DNA of 43,836 bases from a virus: IMG/VR virus record IMGVR_UViG_3300008450_000085, positions 1 to 43,836 of that record; one strand, written 5' to 3'. Positions 5,284 through 34,771 of this stretch are shown in pieces (position 1 is the stretch's first letter; each line of letters begins with the position of its first letter). The position numbers were made by a program, and so were the translations under genes. The notes under the pieces were generated by a model. The model searched no databases. It saw only the letters and a program-made list of their open reading frames with translations, and had not been told where the DNA came from.

Positions 5284-5646
5284 TCACGCCGACTTGAATA
5301 GCGCCTTCTTATTTTCGTTGCCGCAATACGTTTCTACATACCCGCCGAGGAGTTGCTTGCCTGCGATTGCGACCCGATAGCCGCAGCCCGTGCATTCAAA
5401 CTCGCCCACAGACTCCACAACTGTTTGTGTTTCAATGCGAGTGTCTGACGAAAGGCGATACTGGTGGATAGCCGACTTGGGGTCGGTGCGTCGCTCAATC
5501 TTGTAGCCGCGCTTCCGCAGTTCCAAGATACGTGCGCCAAATCTTGAGCCACCAACCGCAGGGTGGAGGAGTTCGGCTCCGCGCACCCATGCACCATCCG
5601 CTCCGCGTAGCGTTTCTAGGACCCTGTCTGCTTGCGTCTTAGGCAT
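5284..5646 (-). CDS. Winged-helix/HTH protein with C-terminal Cys motif
   Basis: 120 residues from ATG at 5646, preceded by GGGAG. A longer frame to 5793 runs through the upstream gene and lacks a site. Residues 1-50 (TQADRVLETLRGADGAWVRG, then a GARILELRKRGY segment) match the pattern of a phage helix-turn-helix / winged-helix domain. A C-terminal ECTGCGYR ... TYCGNE pair of Cys-x2-Cys-like knuckles could bind zinc. Transcription regulation of the adjacent divergent control region is a natural guess. It overlaps the upstream minus-strand gene by 8 bp. Confidence 0.6.
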   Translation of the reverse strand: MPKTQADRVLETLRGADGAWVRGAELLHPAVGGSRFGARILELRKRGYKIERRTDPKSAIHQYRLSSDTRIETQTVVESVGEFECTGCGYRVAIAGKQLLGGYVETYCGNENKKALFKSA

Positions 5647-18393: not shown

Positions 18394-19611
18394 ATGACTG
18401 AGGCATTCCGCAACCGCATTGTCGGTGAAGGCGAGGAGTTGGCAGACCAACTACTGGCTAATCCTTCCAATTGGCGCATTCATGGCGCAGGGCAACAGGC
18501 ATCGCTTGATGCCGCCATTGAACGGCTAGGCTGGATTCAGCGAGTCGTAGTAAACGTTACGACAGGGCATTTGGTTGACGGACATTTGCGCGTGATGTTG
18601 GCAATGAAGCGACGCGAACAAAAAGTTCCCGTCCTGTACGTTGAGTTGACTCCTGAAGAAGAAGCCTACGCCCTCGCCACACTTGACCCTATTGCAGCAA
18701 TGGCAGAAGCCGATACCGCCAAGTTAACCGCATTGCTGTCATCACTTGGAGCGGTGGACGACGCACTAACGCATGTGCTTAATCAGACAGCGCAGATGGC
18801 AGGCGCGGCATTTACTGCGGACGGATTAGAGGACTTGTCGCTGCCAAGCGGCACACTCGTACGCCCAAAGACGAAGCCTGATGTCATCTTCACGTTTAGC
18901 CAAAGCGACGGGGCATGCTGCACCGCCGTAGACGCAGGCTTGTTATACGGAACGCGTAGCACCAAGTCAACGCCATGCGAACGACATCGCTCTGAGTTCG
19001 TGGACAATGAATGGAAGGGCTATGAACACGAAGTGCATGTAGGAGTCGTGGAGCAACTTCGTCCGCGCTACGCAACTGTCCTTGACTTGCTAACGAAAGG
19101 GCAATGCGAAGCAATGGGCTTGCCATACAAAACGTTTGACGAAATCATGAAGTATGCTGAGGACGTAGAGCCGTTTACAGAAAACGTCATCGTCATTCCT
19201 AAGTACGACTGCATTGCAGACATCCCAGAGAAATATATGTTGGGCTACTCGGTGCCTTCGTCCTACGGTGGCACGCCGCTTGCCTTTGACCGCTTCCGAG
19301 GTCGCCGCACGCACCTGCTAGGAGGCTCGCCTGCAAAGCAGTTTGCCCTTTGGTGCGGCTATCCAGATGAAGTCATTAGCATTGACACCAATTACATTCA
19401 CAAGGTTGCTCAGTACGGGCAGGTTGCCTCAACAGACCTTGGGCGACAGTACGGCATCGTCACGGAGCCAATGCCTGCCCTAAAGACAACTTCTATTATG
19501 GACATGGGCATTCTCAAGTCCGCCAATCACCTGTACATCGCCTTCGCCATGAGCGCATCGTTGCTTGCTGGCTTGTTTGACCCAGACTTTAAGCCTGCGG
19601 AGGGCGCATGA
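18394..19611 (+). CDS. ParB-like domain fused to putative DpdA/TGT-like DNA-guanine transglycosylase
   Basis: 405 residues. Residues 1-105 form a ParB/Srx-type N-terminal domain: NPSNWRIHG, LGWIQRVVVN and GHLVDGHLRV near 58-67. Residues 160-200 hold a small Cys unit (CC at 175-176, C195, H198). The C-terminal half contains IPKYDCIADIPEKYMLGYSV continuing PSSYGGT (269-294), then THLLGGSPAKQF (306-317) and VISIDTN (327-333). These match my recollection of DNA 7-deazaguanine transglycosylases (DpdA-type, distant from tRNA TGT, whose GGL motif would correspond to LLGG). It would exchange guanine in phage DNA for a preQ base, with the ParB part guiding DNA contact. The adjacent queC/queF/yhhQ genes support this. 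ParB domains in phages are also often fused to methylases, but no SAM motif is seen here. Confidence 0.6.
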   Translation: MTEAFRNRIVGEGEELADQLLANPSNWRIHGAGQQASLDAAIERLGWIQRVVVNVTTGHLVDGHLRVMLAMKRREQKVPVLYVELTPEEEAYALATLDPIAAMAEADTAKLTALLSSLGAVDDALTHVLNQTAQMAGAAFTADGLEDLSLPSGTLVRPKTKPDVIFTFSQSDGACCTAVDAGLLYGTRSTKSTPCERHRSEFVDNEWKGYEHEVHVGVVEQLRPRYATVLDLLTKGQCEAMGLPYKTFDEIMKYAEDVEPFTENVIVIPKYDCIADIPEKYMLGYSVPSSYGGTPLAFDRFRGRRTHLLGGSPAKQFALWCGYPDEVISIDTNYIHKVAQYGQVASTDLGRQYGIVTEPMPALKTTSIMDMGILKSANHLYIAFAMSASLLAGLFDPDFKPAEGA

Positions 19612-20729
19612 AGCAAATTAAAAACGCAATCGTAGGCTCTGCTGACGTAGACCCATTTAGCGTTGACATGAATGACGCCAACTGGCGGACGCATCCAACA
19701 GAGCAAAAGCGCGCACTAGAAGAGGCGCTTACGCGCGTCGGCTGGGTGCAGCGGGTTATTGTCAACAAAAACACCAACAGGGTCGTTGATGGTCACTTGA
19801 GGCTATCCGTCGCGCGCGCCAAGAACGAGCCAACCGTGCCAGTAACCTATGTAGACCTATCAGACGACGACGAGCGTTTGGCATTGGCGACGTTTGACCC
19901 AATTGGTTCGTTGGCGTTTGCTGACAAGGATGCACTAACCGCGCTGCTCGGCTCGCTTGACAACACCGACGAGGCAATCGGCAACATGCTGACTGAAACG
20001 GCAAAGAACGCGGGCATCATCAAGGAAGATAAGTCGCAGACAGGTGACGACGACGGTCTGGGCAAAAAGCCTCGCCCCAAGACGCACCTTGACGTTTATG
20101 TAATCGTTAACGACGATGACAGCCGCTGCTGCGCGGTTACGAGGGCAGGACTTCTATATGCGACTGAAACGCGCGAGAAGCCTTGCCGCGTTCACCCTAT
20201 TGCTCTTTATGCCCCCCGAACCCTTACTAGCGAGAGCGTGCGGGAAACACGCGCCCTGCGCTATGTAATTCGGTGCGCGAGCATAGGGTCTAGCGAGGGT
20301 GTGCTTGCTGACGAGGTGATTGCGGCAGGGGCTGAGCCTGTGTATATGCCGAGCCGTCCGCCTGTCGGCTTGCGACCTGATGCTGTCGTTGCCTATGACC
20401 TTGATGATGAGCCGTACCCTCTAGACGCACTAGGTGAGCAGCCAGTCATTTTGTTCTCGTCCGATTGCAACAAACTTGTCAATGCCATTGGCAAGGCAAA
20501 TATTGTCGGGGTAGCAAGCGCACAACCTGCGGAAGCGGCTGGTCGTGGCGAACTGATTCTGTGGGACTTGCGCGCAAAACTAGGCGGCGTTACTTCGCCA
20601 ATGCCACTAACAAATATGCCGACGGTGAGCGACTTGGGCTATCACGTCCCGAACCCAATGCCAATTGCCATTGCCCTAAACTCATCCACAATGGCGCTTG
20701 CGTTTAACGACGAGGCGGCTCTGATATAG
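19608..20729 (+). CDS. ParB-like tandem paralogue with diverged C-terminal domain
   Basis: 373 residues, ATGA overlap with the preceding gene. The same ParB domain (NWRTHPTEQKRALEEAL, GWVQRVIVN, VVDGHLRL, LATFDPIGSLA) and the same Cys unit (CC at 174-175, C193, H196) are present. The terminal region also aligns: GGVTSPMP ... DLGYHVPNPMPIAIALNSS against GIVTEPMP ... MDMGILKSANHLYIAFAMSAS. The middle lacks the SVPxxYGGT and HLLGGSP motifs, so this copy is probably non-catalytic or altered in specificity. By analogy with the heterodimeric eukaryotic TGT, it may partner the first protein. No alternative function is evident. Confidence 0.6.
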   Translation: MKQIKNAIVGSADVDPFSVDMNDANWRTHPTEQKRALEEALTRVGWVQRVIVNKNTNRVVDGHLRLSVARAKNEPTVPVTYVDLSDDDERLALATFDPIGSLAFADKDALTALLGSLDNTDEAIGNMLTETAKNAGIIKEDKSQTGDDDGLGKKPRPKTHLDVYVIVNDDDSRCCAVTRAGLLYATETREKPCRVHPIALYAPRTLTSESVRETRALRYVIRCASIGSSEGVLADEVIAAGAEPVYMPSRPPVGLRPDAVVAYDLDDEPYPLDALGEQPVILFSSDCNKLVNAIGKANIVGVASAQPAEAAGRGELILWDLRAKLGGVTSPMPLTNMPTVSDLGYHVPNPMPIAIALNSSTMALAFNDEAALI

Positions 20730-20732
20730 TGG

Positions 20733-20751
20733 CACCGACATCAAGTCGGTG
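20733..20751 (+). other. Hairpin immediately upstream of the riboswitch
   Basis: CACCGAC (20733-20739), ATCAA, GTCGGTG (20745-20751): a perfect 7-bp stem between the ParB-paralogue stop and the preQ1-I-like aptamer. It has no T-run. It may insulate the aptamer or mark the 5' end of an RNA. Confidence 0.65.
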
Positions 20752-20753
20752 TC

Positions 20754-20788
20754 CGCGGTTTGCGACCATCCCGCGATAACAAAACTAG
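20754..20788 (+). promoter_or_regulatory. preQ1-I-like riboswitch aptamer controlling yhhQ-queF-GNAT-queC
   Basis: A 5-bp stem CGCGG (20754-20758) pairs with CCGCG (20771-20775). The 12-nt loop ends in C20770, the position of the preQ1-recognising cytosine. The tail is ATAACAAAAC (20776-20785), 9 of 10 bases identical to the A-rich tail of the Thermoanaerobacter tengcongensis preQ1-I aptamer. G20764-C20785 and C20763-G20788 could form the pseudoknot stem P2. G20788 starts the GAGGGAG Shine-Dalgarno (20788-20794), nine bases before the yhhQ ATG, so ligand binding would hide the ribosome site. The downstream genes are preQ0/preQ1 genes, which makes chance unlikely. Confidence 0.8.
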
Positions 20789-20803
20789 AGGGAGAAGACA
20801 GAA

Positions 20804-21376
20804 ATGGTTCTGTTCCTAATCATCGCCGCCTATGTCGGCGTAACGCTCGCGGCTAATACATATGCCACGACGTTGATTGAGTTGCCGCTGTTCGGTGTTG
20901 TCGGTGTCGGCACGCTGTTCTTCGGCGCAACGTTCACTTTGCGGGACTGGATTCACCAGTTTGCGCATGACCAAGGGCGCGGGCGCAAGCCCGTGTACTA
21001 CATGATTGCATCAGCGGCAATCGTGAACTTCCTTGTGGCAATCGTCACAGGCGGCGAGCAGTTTGATATTCGTATCGTGCTTGCATCCTGCGCGGCGATT
21101 CTTATCGCTGAATCGGCAGACACGGAAATCTATCAGCGCCTTATCAAGAGGAACTGGTACTTGCGCGTCGCGGCATCTAACGGAGTATCCGCTCCGCTAG
21201 ATTCCATCATCTTTACGCTGCTCGCCTTTTACGGCGCGTCGTACTTTCCACAGGAACTTCTTATCCCTGTGATTTTTGGCGACACGCTAGTTAAGTGGGC
21301 AGTAGGAGGCTTGCTTGCGCTTACGAAGTCCGTACGCGACGCAGCAGGCGCAGTGCTGAAAGGACTTAACGGATGA
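20804..21376 (+). CDS. yhhQ: Queuosine-precursor transporter, YhhQ/VUT family
   Basis: 190 residues with five to six hydrophobic membrane segments. Family motifs are present: ANTYATTLIEL, FGATFTLRDWIHQFAHD, ESADTEIYQRLIKRNWYLR and SNGVSAPLDSIIFTLLAF. YhhQ proteins import preQ0 and preQ1 across the inner membrane. The start is ATG 20804, with GAGGGAG eight to nine bases upstream and the riboswitch before it. It begins an operon of overlapping genes (ATGA with queF). A phage-encoded importer would raise the supply of the modified base precursor during infection. Confidence 0.85.
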   Translation: MVLFLIIAAYVGVTLAANTYATTLIELPLFGVVGVGTLFFGATFTLRDWIHQFAHDQGRGRKPVYYMIASAAIVNFLVAIVTGGEQFDIRIVLASCAAILIAESADTEIYQRLIKRNWYLRVAASNGVSAPLDSIIFTLLAFYGASYFPQELLIPVIFGDTLVKWAVGGLLALTKSVRDAAGAVLKGLNG

Positions 21377-21819
21377 GTAACGCGGAACACTTGCAAGCAC
21401 TTGGGTCACAAGTAACGGAGTATCCGACGACGTACGATGAGTCCGTCTTGGAAAAGATTCCGTTTGACCATTCAGGCACGAGCATCGTTGAGTTGGAGTG
21501 CCCCGAATTCACAAGTCTTTGCCCAAAGACGGGGCAGCCAGACTTTGCGAACATTACGATTCGTTATCGTCCAGATAAGTACCTCGTAGAGTCCAAGGCT
21601 CTGAAACTGTACCTGTTTAGTTTCCGCAACCATGGCGAGTTCCATGAGGACTGCATTGCGCGTATTGCTAAAACGCTATACGCCCTTACGGAGCCTTTCT
21701 GGTTGGAAGTACGCGGCGATTTCACTCCGCGTGGCGGCATCAGCATTAACCCTGTAGCCGTCATTGAGCGTCCGATGCCAGTCGGCAACGAAAGCCCTCG
21801 CATCGTCGTTCCGCGATGA
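21373..21819 (+). CDS. queF: preQ0 nitrile reductase QueF (NADPH-dependent)
   Basis: 148 residues, the length of unimodular type I QueF. It carries the catalytic FTSLCPKTGQPDF with Cys50 and Asp57, the NADPH-site segment ESKALKLYLFSFRNHGEFHE (73-92) with the ES-K-x-KLY pattern, and the C-terminal RGDFTPRGGI. All key residues are present, so it should reduce preQ0 to preQ1, unlike QueF-like amidinotransferases that lack the NADPH motif. ATGA overlaps on both sides show tight coupling with yhhQ and the GNAT gene. Confidence 0.92.
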   Translation: MSNAEHLQALGSQVTEYPTTYDESVLEKIPFDHSGTSIVELECPEFTSLCPKTGQPDFANITIRYRPDKYLVESKALKLYLFSFRNHGEFHEDCIARIAKTLYALTEPFWLEVRGDFTPRGGISINPVAVIERPMPVGNESPRIVVPR

Positions 21820-22250
21820 GTATTCGCTACGACTTGGCGGTTCCAGAGGACTACGACGGAATCGCACTCGTGGCGAAGCAGGCAGTCCGCGAGTTGGGGT
21901 ACACGATGCCGCCCGTTTATCGGGCGTCAATCGCAAGTAGCGAGATGGTCGCTGCGTACTCTGACTCGCGGGTTGTCGGCTTTATTCAGTTCCATAAACG
22001 ACGCGACGGCATTGTTACGATTTATAAATTTGCCGTTGATACAGAATTACGCGGCAAAGGCATTGGTAAGGGCATGCTGGAGTTCTTGGAGCAGCGTAGC
22101 CGTTCCGTGCTTCATGCCGAAGCCATACGCCTCAAAGTCATAGAAGGAACGCCCGCCGTGGACTTTTACCACGCCGTTGGCTTTAATACGATAGACAAGG
22201 AGCCGTCTAAAAAGACGAATCTTCTCGTCATGAGGAAGGAGTTGGAATGA
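21816..22250 (+). CDS. GNAT-family N-acetyltransferase in the modification operon
   Basis: 144 residues. Motif A FAVDTELRGKGIGKGMLEF (about residues 73-91) contains the R/Q-x-x-G-x-G/A acetyl-CoA pyrophosphate loop. Motif B is AVDFYHAVGFNTIDKE (about residues 118-133). It is overlapped by queF (ATGA) and by queC at its end, so it is part of the preQ1 operon. The primary amine of preQ1 is an obvious candidate acceptor, and Mom of phage Mu shows that GNAT-fold enzymes can modify DNA bases. Protein acetylation or toxin-like roles remain possible. The acceptor is inference. Confidence 0.7.
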   Translation: MSIRYDLAVPEDYDGIALVAKQAVRELGYTMPPVYRASIASSEMVAAYSDSRVVGFIQFHKRRDGIVTIYKFAVDTELRGKGIGKGMLEFLEQRSRSVLHAEAIRLKVIEGTPAVDFYHAVGFNTIDKEPSKKTNLLVMRKELE

Positions 22251-22975
22251 AAGCAATTATCGTTGCCTCAGGAGGCATGGACAGCGCAACCGCTGCCTAT
22301 CAGTACGCACACCGAGGCTATGAACTGCACCTTGTCGGGTTTGACTACGGTCAGAGGCACGTCAAGGAACTGTCGGCACTTATGCAGGTCGGCGGCAGGC
22401 TTAACGCCCCCGTCAGCATTATTGACCTAAAGTCGCTCGGAGAGTTCCTTGGCAGGAATAGCCTGACAGGTGACAACACCGTTCCAGACGGGCATTACCG
22501 CGAGGAAACGATGCGCCAGACGGTCGTGCCTAACCGCAACGCCATCATGATTAACATCGCAGCAGGTATCGCCCAAGCCGAAAACGCCGAAAGGGTCGTT
22601 ACTGGAGTTCATAGCGGCGACCATTACATCTACCCAGACTGCCGCCCGCAGTTCGTGCGCGCGCTTGCCGAAAGTATTTCATACGCCACCGAAGGGGCAG
22701 TCGCTCTGGACGCACCGTTCCTCCACCTGACCAAGGCTGATATCGTCAAGGAAGGCGCGAGGCTAAACTTGCCGTATGAGATAACATGGAGTTGTTACAA
22801 GGGTGGCGCGCAGCATTGCGGCACATGCGGCACATGCTTTGAGCGCAAAGAGTCGTTTAACGTGGCAGGAGTACCTGACCCGACGAACTATATTCAGGAG
22901 GGCTTTGAGTGGTACAAGGGGTCATTGCCAGTAGAGAGAGCGGGACTGCCAGTCGGCGGAGAGATGGAGTCGTAG
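22247..22975 (+). CDS. queC: 7-cyano-7-deazaguanine (preQ0) synthase QueC
   Basis: 242 residues. The PP-loop ATP site SGGMDSATAA is at 8-17. FDYGQRHVKEL, the VVPNRNAIMINIAAG motif (93-107), and the zinc site with Cys183, Cys191, Cys194 and Cys197 (SCYKGGAQHCGTCGTCFERK) are all conserved. QueC converts 7-carboxy-7-deazaguanine and ammonia to preQ0 with ATP. GTP cyclohydrolase, QueD and QueE are not encoded here, so the CDG substrate must come from the host. Overlaps the GNAT gene (ATGA) and the GP88-like gene. Confidence 0.93.
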   Translation: MKAIIVASGGMDSATAAYQYAHRGYELHLVGFDYGQRHVKELSALMQVGGRLNAPVSIIDLKSLGEFLGRNSLTGDNTVPDGHYREETMRQTVVPNRNAIMINIAAGIAQAENAERVVTGVHSGDHYIYPDCRPQFVRALAESISYATEGAVALDAPFLHLTKADIVKEGARLNLPYEITWSCYKGGAQHCGTCGTCFERKESFNVAGVPDPTNYIQEGFEWYKGSLPVERAGLPVGGEMES

Positions 22976-23712
22976 CCAAGCCGCGAAAGTGGTTGCTGCG
23001 GCAAAACGCCGAACTTCGGGACATTGGCGCGTTTAACTGGACGCTGCCCGCACTAGGAGTCAAGTTAGACGACGGAAGGGTCATCAAGACCTGTCCGCAG
23101 GCTGGGGTATGCGCGCAGTTCTGCTACGCCCGAAATGGCACCTTCCTGTTCCCTACAGCGAAAAAGGCGCACGCGAATAACCTGAAGATGGTGCTAGATG
23201 ACCTCGTTGGATGGCAAAGCGCCATGATTGAGGAGTTATCACACAAGCGGTATCGGGGCGGCAAGTACGTCCGAATTCATGACTCAGGGGACTTTTTCAG
23301 CGATGAGTACCTTGAGGCGTGGATTTACATCGCCAGGGTCATCCCTGACGTGACGTTTTATGCGTACACGAAGGAAGTATCGCGCTTTAAGCGCATAGCC
23401 GACAAAGAGTATTACTCGTCAACGGCTCAGCCCGCGGGCATGCAACGACTCACCCCAAAGAACTTTCTCTACCTGTATTCGCTCGGAGGGCTAGAAGACC
23501 ACCTCATAGACTTAGAAAATGACCGCCATGCGGAGGTGTTCCCTACGGCGGAAGCACTTGAGGCGGCGGGCTACTTCAATCAGGAGGAGTCAGACTTGCT
23601 CGCAATTACCGCACCTACGAACAAAATTGGCATCGTTGCCAATAACATCCCAGCGTTCAAGAAGAAGCAAGGTGCGCTCACATTTGGGCAGCACCAAGAA
23701 AGGAAGGGCTAA
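22909..23712 (+). CDS. GP88-like Cys-motif phage protein in the modification module
   Basis: 267 residues from GTG 22909, set by an AGGAGGG site inside queC, a 67-bp overlap. A Cys motif CPQAGVCAQFCYARNGTF (about residues 61-78, C-x5-C-x3-C) is followed by GGKYVRIHDSGDFFSDEYLE, typical of phage GP88/DUF7227-type proteins. The C-terminal part is YSLGGLEDHLIDL and acidic helices. The Cys layout suggests a metal or iron-sulfur site, but no activity is known. Its place at the end of the preQ operon suggests a role in base modification or protection from it. Confidence 0.6.
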   Translation: MVQGVIASRESGTASRRRDGVVAKPRKWLLRQNAELRDIGAFNWTLPALGVKLDDGRVIKTCPQAGVCAQFCYARNGTFLFPTAKKAHANNLKMVLDDLVGWQSAMIEELSHKRYRGGKYVRIHDSGDFFSDEYLEAWIYIARVIPDVTFYAYTKEVSRFKRIADKEYYSSTAQPAGMQRLTPKNFLYLYSLGGLEDHLIDLENDRHAEVFPTAEALEAAGYFNQEESDLLAITAPTNKIGIVANNIPAFKKKQGALTFGQHQERKG

Positions 23713-33773: not shown

Positions 33774-34409
33774 ATGGGTCTATCGTACCGCTCCGCAATT
33801 CGTTTGGAGGCTGGCGATAGTGGCATATTCACACGAGATACTTTTTCAGGAACGGGCGCAAAAACCGCGTTCTGGGTTACAGGTTCGCCTATTGATACGG
33901 CGAGCGTCGTAGCATATGTCAGCGACACCGTTGTAACGGCAACAGGCTCTACGGATGGGCGCGTGGTATTTACTGCTGCGCCCGCTTCGGGCACCGATAA
34001 CGTAGACATTGCCTATCAAGCCGTAATCCTTAACGACACTAAAGTTGATGAGATTTTGCGGCAGCATGGCTTCACTTCGCCAACGGCTGAGGCAGATTCT
34101 CCTCTCACCGTAGAGTTTTATCGGGCAGCGGCGCATTTGTGCGATGCGCTTGCGAGCCATTTTGCGGGTGCAGCAGACACGAATATTGACGGCACCGATA
34201 TCAAGCGAAGCCAGATGGCGCTCGCATTCGCCAAGCGAGCAGCGGACATCCGTCAAAAAATTGCACGGGAGTTCGCCTCCATTAGTGCAATGAAGATTAA
34301 GCGGTTGGACGGCTACGCAGCACTTGATGAGGTGACGAGCGACGAGTACGGCGGAAGCGATACGAACCCGCGCCGCAAGTACTATGGCGATGAGGATGAT
34401 ATTCCGTGA
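33774..34409 (+). CDS. Head-tail connector (adaptor)-like protein
   Basis: 211 residues. A beta-rich N-terminal domain of about 80 residues (SGTGAKTAFWVTG) is fused to a helical domain (TVEFYRAAAHLCDALASHFA, MALAFAKRAADIRQKIARE). The helical part resembles gp6/gp15-like head-tail adaptors. The overlap with the next gene (GTGA) fits the neck operon. The N-terminal extension is unusual for the family. Confidence 0.55.
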   Translation: MGLSYRSAIRLEAGDSGIFTRDTFSGTGAKTAFWVTGSPIDTASVVAYVSDTVVTATGSTDGRVVFTAAPASGTDNVDIAYQAVILNDTKVDEILRQHGFTSPTAEADSPLTVEFYRAAAHLCDALASHFAGAADTNIDGTDIKRSQMALAFAKRAADIRQKIAREFASISAMKIKRLDGYAALDEVTSDEYGGSDTNPRRKYYGDEDDIP

Positions 34410-34771
34410 CCCGCATTAGCGGCACGGAAATCGTACGCGCACGAGAGGCAATCAACGACGCATACACAGAAGTCGTTACTGTTTCGCGCGCAACTCGCAC
34501 CGCTGATGGCAAAGGCGGCTGGACAAACGCATATACAAATGTTGCGCAAGTAAGCGGTCGCCTTGCCTCGCTAAAAGGCTCGGACGCAATTGCCTATGAG
34601 GGTGAACTAGGTTCATCTGAAGGCTTTGTATTGACCCTTCCGCGCGGCTATACTCTCAAGGCGGCGGACAGGATTCGCGTTCGTGGAATCACATGCGAGC
34701 CTGTAATTGATGGAAATGAAACGCCACTTCGCGTCGCAGGGCGTTGGATTTGTAGAAAGGTGAATGCATAA
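34406..34771 (+). CDS. Head-closure (stopper)-like protein
   Basis: 121 residues from GTG 34406 (GTGA overlap). AYTEVVTVSRATRTADGKGG and VSGRLASLKGSDAIA, with a strand-rich end (PLRVAGRWICRKVNA), match the short beta-barrel pattern of SPP1 gp16 / head-tail stopper proteins that close the portal channel. Its neighbours are a connector, then tail-completion genes. Confidence 0.6.
   Translation: MTRISGTEIVRAREAINDAYTEVVTVSRATRTADGKGGWTNAYTNVAQVSGRLASLKGSDAIAYEGELGSSEGFVLTLPRGYTLKAADRIRVRGITCEPVIDGNETPLRVAGRWICRKVNA

Follow-up and report, generated by a model that had tools for sequence, protein, structure and literature searches.

The window, as we call the whole 43,836-nucleotide stretch analysed here (IMG/VR record IMGVR_UViG_3300008450_000085), contains a tightly packed phage gene cluster (18394-22975) whose genes overlap by ATGA, except at a sole gap of 74 bases. 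This gap holds a predicted hairpin (P0), a candidate preQ1-I aptamer and the Shine-Dalgarno sequence of yhhQ, with aptamer and Shine-Dalgarno together spanning 20754-20794. The features are listed here with strand in parentheses.

18394..19611 (+): protein with a ParB-like N-terminal part and DUF6610 (PF20314, 3.4e-35), a candidate DNA transglycosylase (TIM barrel) from its fold matches and the presence of the family in HVTV-1
19608..20729 (+): ParB-like paralogue, ~30% identical to the preceding protein, encoded just upstream of the putative riboswitch
20731..20753 (+): P0 hairpin, GGCACCGAC-aucaa-GUCGGUGUC, predicted by folding, directly 5' of the aptamer
20754..20758 (+): P1 5' strand CGCGG, in which G20758 is the pocket-floor G5 (RF00522 alignment and residue check)
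20759..20770 (+): loop UUUGCGACCAUC, 12 nt, last base C (RF00522 alignment and residue check; base roles from PMC8752633); U6 and U7 are 20759-60, G9, C10 and A12 are 20762, 20763 and 20765, and U16 and C17 are 20769-70
20771..20775 (+): P1 3' strand CCGCG (RF00522 alignment and residue check)
20776-20785 (+): A-rich tail AUAACAAAAC
20776..20784 (+): A-rich L3 AUAACAAAA, with A28-A30 at 20782-20784 (RF00522 alignment and residue check)
20785..20788 (+): predicted P2 3' strand, C31 U32 A33 G34 (position-by-position match to the Can type I structure)
20788..20794 (+): Shine-Dalgarno GAGGGAG of yhhQ, 9 nt 5' of the ATG at 20804 (sequence and folding)
20804..21376 (+): yhhQ (yhhQ/Vut_1), a queuosine precursor (preQ0/preQ1) transporter and the gene that would be directly controlled (PF02592, 2.4e-15; TIGR00697 above cut-off; start conserved in the related contig L001)
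21373..21819 (+): queF, a B. subtilis-type preQ1 synthase (QueF-II), overlapping yhhQ by ATGA (TIGR03139 above cut-off; PDB 4f8b, 1.3e-42)
21816..22250 (+): GNAT acetyltransferase, ATGA overlap, no Shine-Dalgarno of its own seen in the sequence (PF13673, 4.8e-15)
22247..22975 (+): queC, preQ0 synthase, ATGA overlap, with a strong Shine-Dalgarno of its own, AGGAAGGAG (PF06508, 7.8e-62; TIGR00364 above cut-off)

The YhhQ, QueF-II and QueC assignments all lie above the NCBIfam curated cut-offs. The phage QueF should make preQ1, since it retains the reductase active-site motifs CPKTGQPD and ESKALKLY and matches the B. subtilis-type enzyme so strongly. We found no QueD (PF01242) in the record, and therefore the earlier pathway steps would come from the host. 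The GNAT protein encoded between queF and queC could acylate the preQ1 aminomethyl group or the modified base; the L001 operon has no GNAT gene. After queC, at 22909-23712, there is a gene for a GP88-family protein (PF17338) with a Cys-rich motif, conserved in L001 and in L137.

A preliminary description of this DNA had proposed a preQ1-I aptamer from a 5-bp stem, a 12-nt loop ending in C and an A-rich tail. All three are present in the sequence, and the proposal gains from a significant full-length match to the covariance model RF00522 (PreQ1), which covers 20749-20794 and model positions 1-45 of 45 with a score of 26.9 bits. This is the sole match in the record (E = 4.3e-5 over the entire 43.8 kb), and a 301-bp stretch compared with all 4227 Rfam families gives E = 0.0012. 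Nothing is reported in the window at the Rfam gathering thresholds; the score falls below the RF00522 gathering cut-off of 39 bits, which is a curators' threshold and not a structural feature. A search for the P1 and loop signature followed by an AACTA tail found this site and no other in the window, and gave no match when the full 43.8 kb was shuffled 100 times with dinucleotide composition preserved.

The five pairs of P1 join 20754-20758 with 20771-20775, the closing pair G5-C18 being G20758-C20771. Three signatures define type I elements (PMC11625349, PMC8752633): the 5' strand of P1 is followed by UU, its 3' strand is preceded by UC, and the tail contains CUA. Here UU lies at 20759-60, UC at 20769-70 and CUA at 20785-87, and types II and III, which have AC before the P1 3' strand, were ruled out by that UC. 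In the Can RNA the first preQ1 is contacted by G5, U6, C17 and A30 and the second by U7, U16 and C31 (PMC8752633). Of the 18 bases that the published type I structure singles out, 16 are the same in the window, both ligand-site cytosines included: C20770 corresponds to C17, the alpha-site specificity base, when mapped onto the published base roles (PMC8752633), and C20785 to C31, the beta-site specificity base, by match to the Can structure. Both sites retain their specificity bases (U6, U7, U16, C17, A30 and C31), and with them all of the second-site contact bases U7, U16 and C31. The two bases that differ are both ceiling positions, C8 to U (20761) and A11 to G (20764); of the C8-A12-U32 ceiling triple, A12 and U32 are present and position 8 is U, and L001 has C8. 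Judged by these bases the element is a preQ1-I riboswitch of the type I subclass. The solved type I examples bind two preQ1 (PMC11625349, PMC8752633), and by analogy two preQ1 molecules are probably bound cooperatively here, with the qualification that the second ligand site may be altered, because of C8U and A11G in the window and U16C in L001.

In the Can RNA, P2 is built from A12-U32, G9.A33 and C10-G34, of which C10-G34 is a hypothesis of the authors (PMC8752633). By residue match to that structure we predict the pairs A20765-U20786, G20762.A20787 and C20763-G20788. The last P2 base, G20788, is also the first Shine-Dalgarno base, and P2 gets no further into GAGGGAG. The earlier suggestion that P2 includes the start of the Shine-Dalgarno thus holds for the first G only, and the rest of the motif lies outside P2. 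Because P2 reaches the Shine-Dalgarno at this one base, its occlusion would be incomplete or indirect, like that in the Can riboswitch; 'indirect SD occlusion' is listed for type I (PMC11625349, PMC8752633). We found no terminator-like hairpin with a U-run between the aptamer and the start codon, so translational control is the likely mode, and transcriptional control was dropped as a first choice for the same reason.

Repression of yhhQ translation by preQ1 is the likeliest mechanism that the sequence suggests. Without ligand, the P0 and P1 hairpins would form, the Shine-Dalgarno would be free and yhhQ would be translated; this step draws on the predicted ligand-free fold, in which simple folding retains both hairpins and the Shine-Dalgarno stays unpaired. 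With enough preQ1, probably as two stacked molecules, the tail CUAG would dock on the P1 loop and create P2; this would hold C31-G34, tuck away the start of the Shine-Dalgarno and reduce initiation at yhhQ. Translational coupling at the ATGA overlaps would account for part of the reduction in the genes further downstream. The preliminary description had named yhhQ, queF, the GNAT gene and queC as the regulated genes; their identities are borne out, but direct control would be confined to yhhQ, since queF and queC have Shine-Dalgarno-like sequences of their own (none was seen for the GNAT gene), and any control of the three later genes would run through coupling. In this mechanism preQ1 would repress the genes for its own import and synthesis, an end-product feedback suggested by the gene functions, since YhhQ imports preQ0/preQ1, QueC makes preQ0 and QueF reduces preQ0 to preQ1.

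The P0 hairpin is predicted to be very stable, with a folding energy of -14.4 kcal/mol, matched by none of 200 shuffles, and occupies the space between the stop codon of the upstream gene and the aptamer; it may be an insulator that prevents ribosomes finishing the upstream gene from running onto the aptamer. The start codon of yhhQ lies in the loop of a further small hairpin (20797-20814, GACAGAA-AUGG-UUCUGUU), which is not clearly present in L001.

The related phage contig L001 (IMGVR_UViG_3300044631_001280), with YhhQ 71% and QueF 77% identical, is the only relative in which we found the element. It lies at 5390-5435, between a ParB-like gene and yhhQ, and scores 19.6 bits with RF00522, which is not convincing alone because AT-rich viral contigs give chance RF00522 matches up to ~22 bits; the case for this copy would be carried by position and pairing. 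In the alignment the P1 pair 20757-20772 is G-C in the window and A-U in L001, a compensatory change. The L001 loop retains UU..G..A, ends in C as in the window and has C in place of U16, and its tail keeps AAACUA. A hairpin of different sequence stands in the same place as P0 (5372-5394; -9.2 kcal/mol, with 13 of 200 shuffles as good).

Besides L001, 35 other queF-bearing virus records were examined, and no convincing RF00522 copy was found beside queF. A scan of 23 IMG/VR contigs with a related queF gave a convincing syntenic match in L001 only, and 13 annotated phage records, Funsized and 12 others selected by QueF similarity, had no convincing match beside queF. A weak match of 14.7 bits overlapping the queF start in contig L019 was judged to be chance. 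Two further contigs, L038 and L039, found by searches with YhhQ, the ParB-like protein or TerL, have yhhQ with no gap and no element, and the contigs of close TerL relatives end before the riboswitch site. Across all IMG/VR contigs, a strict type I pattern gave two matches that represent one independent motif, inside a phage structural gene, and a looser pattern gave 66 matches, two of them with all five P1 pairs. One of these two (L080, 9310-9340), a terminator-like hairpin that precedes a thyX-like gene, imitates the preQ1-I signature, and the other gave no hit with RF00522 at an E-value of 0.05; these pattern scans yielded no further genuine case. A 35.8-bit RF00522 match was seen in an unverified 214-kb 'Staphylococcus phage' record (L053, OR844990.1 108005-108051) at a distance of 20 kb from queF, and this part of the record may be of bacterial origin.

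What the preQ1 would be used for is suggested by the genes directly upstream. The full-length ParB-DUF6610 model has TGT among its best fold matches (E ~3e-4, TM < 0.5), the model of the DUF6610 domain only matches generic TIM barrels, and sequence comparison of DUF6610 with E. coli TGT gave no match. No DpdA of known type was recognised in this phage. DUF6610 adjoins yhhQ or queF in L001, L038, L039 and Mycobacterium phage Funsized, and it is present in HVTV-1 and HCTV-1; the Funsized cluster further encodes QueC, QueD, QueE, FolE and an annotated DpdA-like protein. The DUF6610 coordinates are 18394-20729 in the window, 3010-5360 in L001, 1026-1700 and 6428-8227 in L038, 321-1544 in L039 and 33848-34561 in HVTV-1 (NC_020158); the proteins often have a ParB-like N-terminal part and once, in L038, are fused to a DNA methyltransferase-like part. 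In HVTV-1 DNA dPreQ1 stands at ~30% of G, and no viral DpdA was recognised there (PMC6884629). That the ParB-DUF6610 protein is a transglycosylase using a preQ base would be a reasonable guess. Because the ParB-DUF6610 genes are adjacent and the family occurs in HVTV-1, with its proven dPreQ1 DNA, we lean somewhat towards a riboswitch that serves DNA modification. The preQ1 would then most likely end up in phage DNA, and the enzyme that puts it there would be either the adjacent ParB-DUF6610 protein or one supplied by the host. From this arrangement we would infer what the preliminary description called 'feedback control of genome modification'.

A possible objection is that the riboswitch is real but that the preQ1 supply is for queuosine in host tRNA, not for phage DNA. 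Bacterial preQ1 riboswitches normally serve tRNA queuosine (PMC11625349), and for some phages with preQ genes and no DpdA a boost of host queuosine has been suggested (PMC6884629). We consider this use unlikely, though worth keeping in mind, given the ParB-DUF6610 genes directly upstream, the recurrence of DUF6610 beside queF/yhhQ in L001, L038, L039 and Funsized, its presence in HVTV-1 and HCTV-1, and the replacement of ~30% of G by dPreQ1 in HVTV-1 DNA (PMC6884629).

Other objections concern the RNA itself. It could be a degenerate or re-tuned preQ1-I descendant that now binds one preQ1, preQ0 or a GNAT product, as the score below gathering, the changes C8U and A11G here and U16C in L001, and the acetyltransferase in the operon might suggest; we find this improbable, since the specificity bases of both sites are intact and L001 keeps the element in an operon without the GNAT gene. 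Less probable still is a chance resemblance, with two ligand-free hairpins that happen to lie close to a ribosome-binding site. The motif is short, its score is sub-threshold and chance matches to the signature occur elsewhere in viral contigs, but the strict scan of all IMG/VR contigs found a single independent match, in a structural gene, whereas the present element precedes genes for preQ1 supply, recurs in L001 with a compensatory pair, and has its site in none of the shuffles. We are thus highly confident that the window encodes a preQ1-I aptamer that would act on yhhQ translation.

Like the known preQ1-I type I elements (RF00522; Carnobacterium antarcticus, H. influenzae, N. gonorrhoeae), it has a 5-bp P1, a 12-nt loop starting with UU, UC before the P1 3' strand, an A-rich L3, a CUA tail, a predicted P2 reaching the Shine-Dalgarno and a placement before que/transporter genes. 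It differs from the solved type I (Can) in U at 8, G at 11 and one extra L3 base, and from known type I elements generally in its score below gathering, the P0 hairpin just upstream and its phage setting. With type II (B. subtilis, T. tengcongensis) and type III (E. coli) it shares the alpha-site C and the predicted H-type pseudoknot, although the Bsu type II element controls transcription via a terminator and the phage element has none. The glutamine riboswitch of methylophage Melnitz (PMC9004378) is likewise phage-carried, but belongs to another RNA class with another ligand and targets a tmRNA gene, whereas the target here is a biosynthesis and import operon. The phage 7-deazaguanine DNA modification clusters (9g, Dp-1, HVTV-1, Rosebush; PMC6884629) likewise place queF/queC genes in phages, and DUF6610 is common to this phage, HVTV-1, HCTV-1 and Funsized; in Dp-1, Funsized, phi38:2, Mufasa8, the Nanhaiviruses and HCTV-1, queF is not accompanied by a convincing RF00522 match.

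Riboswitches have been called rare in phages (PMC9004378), and the phage examples in the literature we searched relate to a photosynthesis gene or to glutamine. We found no report there of a phage preQ1 riboswitch, an absence that is weak evidence because few subscription journals were covered; a preQ1 review has no mention of phages (PMC11625349), and the paper on phage 7-deazaguanines has no mention of riboswitches (PMC6884629). The RNA class is already known and the phage setting is unusual, and we regard a new member as credible. The fullest reading, that the virus meters preQ import and synthesis for DNA hypermodification through a cooperative two-ligand preQ1 riboswitch, so that supply follows consumption, seems to us evenly poised. 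The element is small and testable, with a known structure, and the transglycosylase that has escaped recognition in viruses such as HVTV-1 may be sought among the ParB-DUF6610 proteins. If true, a preQ1 switch would show a phage balancing a modified-base precursor against its use.
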